NCBI GenBank assembly: GCA_016212295.1
Contig: JACRGO010000070.1
Coordinates: 1 to 12,979 of the forward strand
Direction: 5' to 3'
DNA from: Nitrospinota bacterium
Lineage (GTDB): Bacteria; Nitrospinota; Nitrospinia; JACRGO01
DNA length: 12,979 nucleotides
Shown here: positions 4,439-10,896 of the stretch, piece after piece
Layout of the letters: each line of letters starts with the position of its first letter
Position numbering within the stretch: the stretch's first letter is position 1
The notes under the pieces: model-generated
Told to the model about the DNA's origin: nothing
The model's input: the letters and a program-made list of their open reading frames with translations, nothing else
The model's database searches: none
Translations under genes and position numbers: made by a program

Positions 4439-4744
4439 ATGTTCACGATAAAATGGATAAAAGAGAGGGTTAGAAAAGATGAATATTACTTCTCACGACA
4501 TGGTGATAGAGAAAGGCAAAATGATCTTCTATCAATGTCAGAAGTAGAAGAAGCATTAACCAATGGAATGATTTTAGAGCAATACGAAGATAAAGGAAGA
4601 GGTGAAAGTTGTTTGGTCGTCGGTTTTACAAATTTTGGTAAACCTGTTCATATTGTTTGTGGAGAAATGGAGGGAGAGTTGGCTATAATTACAGTTTATA
4701 TTCCGTCTCCTCCAAAGTTTAAAAATCCATACGAAAGGGGTTGA
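4439..4744 (+). CDS. DUF4258-domain protein, probable toxin of a toxin-antitoxin pair
   Basis: 101 residues. The pattern fits DUF4258 proteins: FSRHGDRERQ near residue 18, an acidic helix MSEVEEALTNGMILEQY, then a beta-rich half with LVVGFTNFGKPVHIVCG, ending ITVYIPSPPKF. These are small RelE/MqsR-fold-like proteins often encoded just upstream of YgiT-type zinc-finger proteins. That is the case here: only six bases separate its stop from the next ATG. By analogy it may be an mRNA interferase, but no catalytic residue has been demonstrated. The gene is strikingly AT-rich with an A-ending codon preference, unlike the flanking RND and cstA genes, which suggests transfer. The start ATG follows an A-rich stretch with only a weak AAGG-like site. 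Confidence 0.75.
   Translation: MFTIKWIKERVRKDEYYFSRHGDRERQNDLLSMSEVEEALTNGMILEQYEDKGRGESCLVVGFTNFGKPVHIVCGEMEGELAIITVYIPSPPKFKNPYERG
4735..4740 (+). promoter_or_regulatory. Ribosome binding site for the YgiT-type antitoxin
   Basis: AAGGGG, inside the last codons of the DUF4258 gene, lies 10 bases before ATG 4751. It allows separate and probably stronger translation of the second gene, as is usual for the antitoxin of toxin-first pairs. Confidence 0.45.
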
Positions 4745-4750
4745 ATTATT

Positions 4751-5005
4751 ATGAAAATTTGTCATTTTTGTGGAAATAAAAATTTTAAAAATATCGAAGT
4801 ACAATACACATATAAGCAAAACGATCAATTTCTTATTGTTGATGATGTTCCATGTGAACAATGTGAGTATTGCGGAGAACAGTATTTTAAAGGAAAGGTA
4901 TTAAAACAAATTGAAAAGGAATTTAATTCTATTCATTTACATGGGAAAAAAGTGAAAAAAGAAATAATAGTTCCAGTTGAACAATTTCATGAAATTCAAT
5001 CATAG
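4751..5005 (+). CDS. YgiT-type zinc-finger protein, probable antitoxin
   Basis: 84 residues. CHFCG at residues 4-8 (C4, C7) and CEQCEYCGEQYF at 35-46 (C38/C41, plus an extra C35) form the paired CxxC zinc-binding site typical of the N-terminal domain of MqsA/YgiT antitoxins. The rest is a lysine-rich helix (VLKQIEKEFNSI) and a tail VKKEIIVPVEQFHEIQ. MqsA also carries a C-terminal HTH domain; this protein is too short for one. It is therefore a 'zinc-finger only' YgiT-type protein that probably binds its partner and may or may not bind DNA. It is translated from AAGGGG six bases after the DUF4258 stop and shares that gene's AT-rich composition, so the two form a bicistronic unit. Confidence 0.78.
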   Translation: MKICHFCGNKNFKNIEVQYTYKQNDQFLIVDDVPCEQCEYCGEQYFKGKVLKQIEKEFNSIHLHGKKVKKEIIVPVEQFHEIQS

Positions 5006-10049: not shown

Positions 10050-10270
10050 AAAAAACGTGACATTGTAGTTGTTATAAAAAAAATCAGCCGTGGATGAACG
10101 CGAATTTTTACTTATGGATTTTAAAAAGTCCGATAGTATCAGCGTAAATCCGTGGCTGATTCTAAAAATCTCTTCGCTTGAGTCTCCGCTTCGCCGAGGA
10201 ACGCTCCGCTTCAGTTGCGGACGCCCAGTGAGTAAGAGGCGAGCCGTCAGTTGCAAGCGGTAAGACACCA
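10050..10270. repeat. Upstream region of the fused-synthase gene with ATCAGC/GGCTGAT palindromes
   Basis: Non-coding. AATCAGCC (10082-10089) pairs perfectly with GGCTGATT (10154-10161). A competing closer partner, ATCAGC (10138-10143), can pair with GCTGAT (10155-10160). The stretch 10165-10220 has repeated CTCCGCTTC-like words. TTGCAAGC (10253-10260) can pair with GCTTGCAA (10305-10312). I find no clear -35/-10 pair for the minus-strand gene; TATAAC or TACAAT on the minus strand near 10065-10076 are weak candidates. Confidence 0.5.
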
Positions 10271-10602
10271 AGAAGCTGTCTTGAAAAAACATTACGGTCC
10301 GCCGGCTTGCAAACACAGCCACGAAAATCCTTAACACACCCCGGCCTTCGGCCACCCCTCTCAAGAGGGGAATTTATAGATGCGGCGTCCTCTCAACAGT
10401 GGATTAAGGCACAAGGCATCCTGGCAAGTCGCGGGAAATCATAAAGGCATCGGGTAAACCGCTGAAAATTATACCGCCGGCGATTAAATTTTTCTTCTGA
10501 AAAATTCCCCTCTTGAGAGGGGTGGCCGAAGGCCGGGGTGTGTCAGCGGGCTTCATATTCCAACCGCATACTTGGATAAACATTTTTTTCAAGACAGCTT
10601 CT
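10271..10602. repeat. Nested 332-bp inverted-repeat element with perfect 42-bp inner arms
   Basis: Inner arms 10334-10375 and 10502-10543 are exact reverse complements over 42 bp. Outer arms 10271-10292 and 10581-10602 (AGAAGCTGTCTTGAAAAAA type) match at all but about two positions. Each inner arm is itself two REP-like hairpins: GGCC-TTC-GGCC and CCCCTC-TCAA-GAGGGG. The 126-bp centre has no recognisable gene. Minus- and plus-strand frames across it are translations of the repeat and are not annotated. Confidence 0.85.
10497..10520 (-). terminator. Possible rho-independent terminator for the small gene at 10606
   Basis: On the minus strand, inside the right inner repeat arm, CCCCTC-TCAA-GAGGGG forms a GC-rich 6-bp stem with a tetraloop and is followed by AATTTTTC. 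It lies about 85 bases downstream of the stop at 10606, in the correct orientation. It may simply be part of the repeat and only act incidentally as a terminator. Confidence 0.35.
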
Positions 10603-10605
10603 AAT

Positions 10606-10896
10606 TTATAAATATTTAATACTAATGCCATTATTTGACACAAATATATTTTGAACATTATGCTTTTTAAACTGGTTGCATATATCGTTTGAATCAAGAT
10701 AACTATATATTACTTGTGGCGCTCGGTCATCAACAAAAGAACGTTCTACTATTAGAATTTGCAACACATTTCCATGATCCAATCTAAATTCATATGAAAA
10801 TGTATACATATCAATCCTATAATTAATATCTGCATCAGGAAATGTTCTTTTTAAATAATCTATAACTACCTTGCTTTTCGTTTCATCAGGAAACAT
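10606..10896 (-). CDS. Small hypothetical protein
   Basis: 96 residues from ATG 10896, with an excellent Shine-Dalgarno GGGAGG a few bases upstream (minus strand TAAAGGGAGGTAAAATATG). The protein is soluble and mixed alpha/beta: an N-terminal acidic/basic helix (PDETKSKVVIDYLKRTFPDA), then strands such as NYRIDMYTFSYEFRLDHG, VLQILIVERSFVDD, and a C-terminal helix plus strand (ICNQFKKHNVQNIFVSNNGI). There is no signal peptide, membrane segment or cysteine pair. It is AT-rich compared with its neighbours. Its stop codon lies four bases from the outer arm of the 332-bp inverted repeat. I do not recognise a family. The ribosome binding site and natural composition make it a likely real gene. Confidence 0.65.
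   Translation of the reverse strand: MFPDETKSKVVIDYLKRTFPDADINYRIDMYTFSYEFRLDHGNVLQILIVERSFVDDRAPQVIYSYLDSNDICNQFKKHNVQNIFVSNNGISIKYL

Follow-up and report, generated by a model that had tools for sequence, protein, structure and literature searches.

The closest described systems are IS5-family MITEs, REPINs, QMITE2 of Coxiella burnetii, and the Correia repeat enclosed elements of Neisseria. IS5-family MITEs are gene-less, carry terminal repeats matching those of IS5-family elements, are flanked by a short AT-rich target duplication, and occur in tens of copies. The element described here shares all of these properties, but unlike them it holds an inverted pair of REPs, which is much less diverged than its other internal sequence, and the centre of its family occurs in both orientations. 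A REPIN (Bertels and Rainey 2011, PMC3116915) is a REP doublet that folds into a hairpin. Our element resembles one in its two inverted REPs, less conserved spacer, strong hairpin, and singlet remnants, and in the presence of Y1 genes of REP-associated type in the genome; it differs in its larger REPs and centre, in the MITE ends that enclose them, and in that no REP lies beside the Y1 genes. The accessible part of one review (PMC10969869) supplies two further precedents. Truncated QMITE2 copies without terminal repeats are described there as resembling REPs, so that a MITE decaying to REP-like remnants has been seen before, though the target duplication of QMITE2 is 7–9 bp rather than TNA, and in that part of the source no separate REP family is described for it. 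The same text cites reported inversion of Correia elements, which are likewise abundant, short, and palindromic; in our family, by contrast, inversion concerns the centre, which lies between the internal inverted REPs and changes direction with respect to the outer arms.

The window, meaning the whole stretch of 12,979 nucleotides analyzed here, is contig 17 of a 3.74-Mb draft genome (237 contigs, 90.5% complete). A nested palindrome with exact 42-bp arms and matching outer arms had been proposed for it, and a mechanical search for inverted repeats recovered this structure. The inner repeats (10334–10375 and 10502–10543) are identical over 42 nt (100%) at a spacing of 126 nt, and the outer repeats (10271–10289 and 10584–10602) are identical over 19 nt (100%) at a spacing of 294 nt. 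From left to right, the copy consists of a target-site duplication CAA (10269–10271), a terminal inverted repeat GAAGCTGTCTTGAAAAAA (10272–10289, plus strand), a type L outer arm (10290–10333, plus strand), REP arm 1 (10334–10375, minus strand), a 126-bp centre (10376–10501), REP arm 2 (10502–10543, plus strand), which is an exact inverted copy of arm 1, a type R outer arm (10544–10583, minus strand), the right terminal inverted repeat (10584–10601, minus strand), identified as the outer inverted-repeat match, and a target-site duplication TAA (10602–10604), identified by flank comparison. We refer to the side of the centre facing REP 1 as A and to the side facing REP 2 as B. Each 42-bp arm contains two hairpin palindromes, GGCC-TTC-GGCC and CCCCTC-TCAA-GAGGGG (10343–10353 and 10355–10370 in arm 1). 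The stretches between inner and outer repeats on the two sides, types L and R, are mutually unrelated, and the element, ~330 bp long with 18-bp perfect terminal repeats, has no convincing internal gene. The descriptive parts of the original prediction (two hairpins in each arm, no gene, unrelated intervals) were thus borne out. An Rfam search of the window gave no match. The predicted RNA fold of the palindrome has an energy of −164.6 kcal/mol, compared with −93.2 (SD 5.3) in shuffled sequences (z −13.5); because of this, and because the arm and the terminal repeat each recur about 110 times genome-wide, a chance origin of the palindrome is excluded.

Both parts of the element are highly repeated in this genome. 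The 20-bp REP core has 116 exact matches, against 1 for a reversed control pattern, and the 19-bp terminal repeat has 111 matches at ≤3 mismatches, against 0 for its reversed control. A recount of the terminal repeat on fetched sequence yielded 109 ends, including a few spurious ones; at two ends per insertion, this amounts to ~50 insertions. The copy closest to that of the window, C183, is 96% identical over 300 bp. TNA precedes 94 of the 105 terminal-repeat ends with readable flanks, and among the 13 complete copies, the left and right 3-bp duplications agree in 10. The window copy has an imperfect duplication, CAA on the left and TAA on the right, the first base on the left deviating from the family consensus TNA. 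Positions 10271 and 10602 are part of the target duplication, which places the true ends of the element at 10272 and 10601. When the flanks of the 13 complete copies were joined, 8 sites had no open frame of 80 codons running across them, which suggests that insertion is mostly intergenic. At C109:10114-10428, the flanks of the MITE are nearly inverted copies of each other (ATTTTAGATTTA and TAAATCTAAAAT), and this MITE has perhaps inserted into a palindrome. One candidate for a cargo-free ancestral MITE, C207 (75 bp, TTA/TTA), was rejected: parts of both outer arms are missing along with the REPs and centre, and it looks like an internal deletion rather than an empty ancestor.

The terminal repeat, rather than transposase models, was used to locate an autonomous partner. 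At two contig ends (C212:8818-8954 and C23:1-137), the terminal repeat is followed by the C-terminus of a transposase, FAWLGNFRRLSKDYEILTRSEENMVRIAMLRITVAKCI-stop, and at the opposite end of C212 (bases 1–137) it is followed by a frame starting MYQSDLSEREWELIGHHFEPK. The nearest relatives of the C-terminus, found in a plasmid collection, share 68% and 61% identity with it (over 38 and 36 aa, respectively). Both are IS5-family transposases whose coding sequence is divided between two frames (NF033580, PF13340, PF01609), and their N-termini, VYQSDLKDAEWLIIKNYFNPS and MSYPSDLSDAEWALIEHHFKPK, resemble the frame start. The elements of the plasmid relatives have CTGTCT-type ends (e.g., GAAGCTGTCTGGCAAAAAT and ..CTGTCTTGAAATAATTT) that partly match the MITE terminal repeat, and they are flanked by TGA/TGA duplications. 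Because the C212 and C23 ends carry the N- and C-termini, the genome contains the two termini of an IS5-type element that bears the MITE terminal repeat. The draft lacks the middle of this element, and an intact transposase is presumed from the two ends. On its own, the C-terminal fragment reached only a sub-threshold Pfam match. A search of the genome with the DDE_Tnp_1 and DUF4096 models found no IS5-type gene over the cut-off, only an IS4-type gene and fragments, and the IS5 fragment has no match in other genomes of the class. As a separate observation, C69 carries a complete IS4-type transposase (DUF4372 and DDE_Tnp_1), with a partial second copy at the end of C227.

By its ends, target duplication, and copy number, and by ends shared with an IS5-type element, this is a MITE of the IS5 type, in line with the non-autonomous, MITE/BIME-like unit originally suggested. 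On sequence grounds, an IS5-family insertion sequence is its probable driver, with mobilization in trans: an IS5-family DDE transposase would recognize the 18-bp ends and insert the element at TNA, duplicating those 3 bp. The explanation we favor for the whole locus, with a probability of roughly 0.87, is a non-autonomous ~330-bp MITE moved in trans by an IS5-family transposase, with a REPIN-like cargo whose arms are conserved family-wide.

Among 59 other genomes, the terminal repeat had a single match, with one mismatch and in a distant genome, which is probably due to chance. The 37-bp REP (≤3 mismatches) was absent from all 76 other genomes of the phylum that were searched, and the only congener has three related REPs, which differ in their loop, and lacks the MITE. 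Neither terminal repeat nor REP gave matches in a set of named genomes and viral contigs, a set that may not include this genome or its near relatives.

We then classified half-elements by their outer arm (L or R) and by the side of the centre (A or B) joined to it. Among halves with a terminal repeat, 34 L-A and 32 R-B have the arrangement of the window copy, against 12 L-B and 11 R-A that are flipped, with a few untyped. The centre is therefore inverted in 23 of 89 typed half-elements, and inversion of the 126-bp centre, which had been proposed as a check, has occurred among copies of the family. The flipped state is seen in four complete copies (C68, C168 at 22.4 kb, C221, and C227), and type L arms occupy both ends of C226, which has an intact TAA/TAA duplication. 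At least 4 orientation switches are needed on the L arm tree and 4 on the R arm tree, counts that are only approximate because the trees are built on 63–68 columns and have little support. One flipped lineage has been amplified, with identical L arms in 10 copies. Flipping and swapping are possible since two inverted REPs of nearly identical sequence are present in each copy; we infer that the centre flips by recombination or template switching between them, and the same process could exchange outer arms. Such flips and swaps would generate new subfamilies, and one subfamily has been amplified in its flipped state. A single genome illustrates the potential of internal inverted repeats to reshuffle a MITE into flipped and arm-swapped subfamilies.

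The REPs are the part of the element that varies least. In arms with a terminal repeat, REP divergence between copies is 2.0% (L) and 0.7% (R), whereas terminal repeats diverge by 3–4%, outer arms by 22–25% (means of 22% for type L and 25% for type R), and the 30 nt of the centre adjoining the REP by 8–30%. The puzzle is why REPs inside a transposon are ~1% diverged when divergence exceeds 20% only a few bases away. As the REPs had been collected by a pattern tolerating few mismatches, a reverse check started from the terminal repeats. Of 109 terminal-repeat matches, 94 carry a REP matching at ≥34 of 42 positions (88 at ≥40), 2 carry a diverged REP, 11 have none, and 2 are incomplete; the 11 include four IS ends, two C207 ends, and several that are likely spurious. 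Because 94 of 109 matches have a good REP and only 2 a diverged one, the conservation is not a bias of collection. The diverged REPs are in the one-armed copies C174 and C1, and that of C174, a single example, has kept both hairpins with letters changed on both sides. This conservation could stem from selection, if a REP-associated tyrosine transposase (RAYT) or another factor that binds hairpins has to recognize the REPs, or from gene conversion among the ~130 REPs; the data are compatible with both.

The strongest competing explanation reverses the roles of the parts: the mobile unit would be REP-centre-REP, a REPIN moved by a RAYT, and the outer terminal repeats would be the hitchhiking flank of one early insertion. 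The REPIN-type feature is indeed present, as two inverted 42-bp REPs around a variable hairpin-forming spacer, and the superior conservation of the REPs would fit. Singlet REPs exist (C6, C42, C199), the congener has REPs without the MITE, and the genome encodes three Y1 (IS200-like) genes of REP-associated type (L145, L146, L147), one of them over the NCBIfam cut-off. However, no REP of the window type was found within ~1.5 kb of the three Y1 genes (a cognate gene may be missing from the draft), which leaves the RAYT link to these REPs circumstantial. Because no neighboring RAYT was found, we stop short of classifying the cargo as a REPIN, although it is REPIN-like in its working. Copies lacking terminal repeats offer evidence in both directions. 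In 29 such halves, homology is lost within 3 nt of the REP edge in 7, as RAYT movement would give, but most end at scattered points, as erosion would give, with a group at 15–18 nt and others out to 67 nt. Erosion explains most of these halves, and independent REP dispersal may account for those ending at the REP edge and for the singlets. Furthermore, most copies have terminal repeats and TNA duplications at unrelated sites, which would be unexpected of a passive flank. We therefore consider a RAYT-moved unit unlikely.

Elements of both mechanisms could nevertheless coexist. As a tentative extension of the MITE reading, which we hold at well below even odds, an IS5 transposase would maintain the terminal repeats while a second system (a RAYT, a hairpin-binding factor, or genome-wide gene conversion) would maintain the REPs, and REP-mediated flips and swaps would regularly make subfamilies. 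If a second factor does maintain the REPs, the family would be a natural experiment on the purpose of REPs beyond the usual RAYT-only setting.

The original prediction read the perfect arms as a sign of recent duplication-inversion or active homogenization. The 42/42 identity in the window copy would suit a recent inverted duplication or gene conversion within that copy, but 81 of 125 REP arms genome-wide have the exact sequence of the window arms, and REPs within one element differ as much as REPs in different elements (1.65 mismatches on average in 37 pairs, against 1.64; permutation p=0.69). The arms also adjoin type L and type R sequence common to dozens of copies. Because of the shared sequence and the permutation result, perfect arms say nothing of a recent event in this copy; their identity reflects how strongly the REP is conserved throughout the family, and a recent local origin is very improbable. 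Homogenization is likewise not supported for the window copy, on the same two grounds. At the level of the family, homogenization or selection may be at work, since REP arms diverge far less than the neighboring sequence.

Equally hard to credit is that the palindrome is not a mobile element but persists as a long hairpin serving the host, for instance in transcription termination or mRNA protection. The element lies between two minus-strand frames, a large gene (7302 to ~10051, open further upstream) and a 96-aa frame that ends at 10606 and has no Pfam match. The strong predicted fold and this position between same-strand frames would suit such a role, as would a terminator-like stem on the minus strand, from REP arm 2, with a T-run at 10522–10507. 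The TNA duplications, the ~50 dispersed sites, and the absence from relatives are, however, marks of a mobile element, and any effect on regulation might be secondary. The congener's orthologue of the large gene shares 64% identity with it and has neither the element nor the 96-aa frame as a neighbor, at a locus where synteny is not preserved.

To an assembly artefact, in which two contig ends were joined at the repeat, we attach almost no weight: the draft has 237 contigs, many of them ending in the element, but the breaks cluster 136–141 bp inside it, which implies k-mers longer than the 42-bp arm, and 12 more complete copies exist, the majority built in the same way and flanked by intact duplications. 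Terminal repeats lie near contig ends in 58 cases, 37 of them at 136–141 bp from the end, which points to de Bruijn assembly at a k of about 141. At that value, a single k-mer would span a half-element as far as the beginning of the centre, so chimeras at the 42-bp arm are unlikely.

In a literature search that reached few subscription papers, we found no description of a MITE with a conserved REP pair and a flipping centre, nor the REP of the window as a sequence. Elsewhere in the window, two adjacent small frames (4439–5005) form what we take to be a toxin-antitoxin-like pair, the second bearing zinc-finger-like CxxC motifs. A further frame of 703 aa (417–2528) is presumably RND-efflux-like; it is short for such pumps and possibly truncated or frameshifted.
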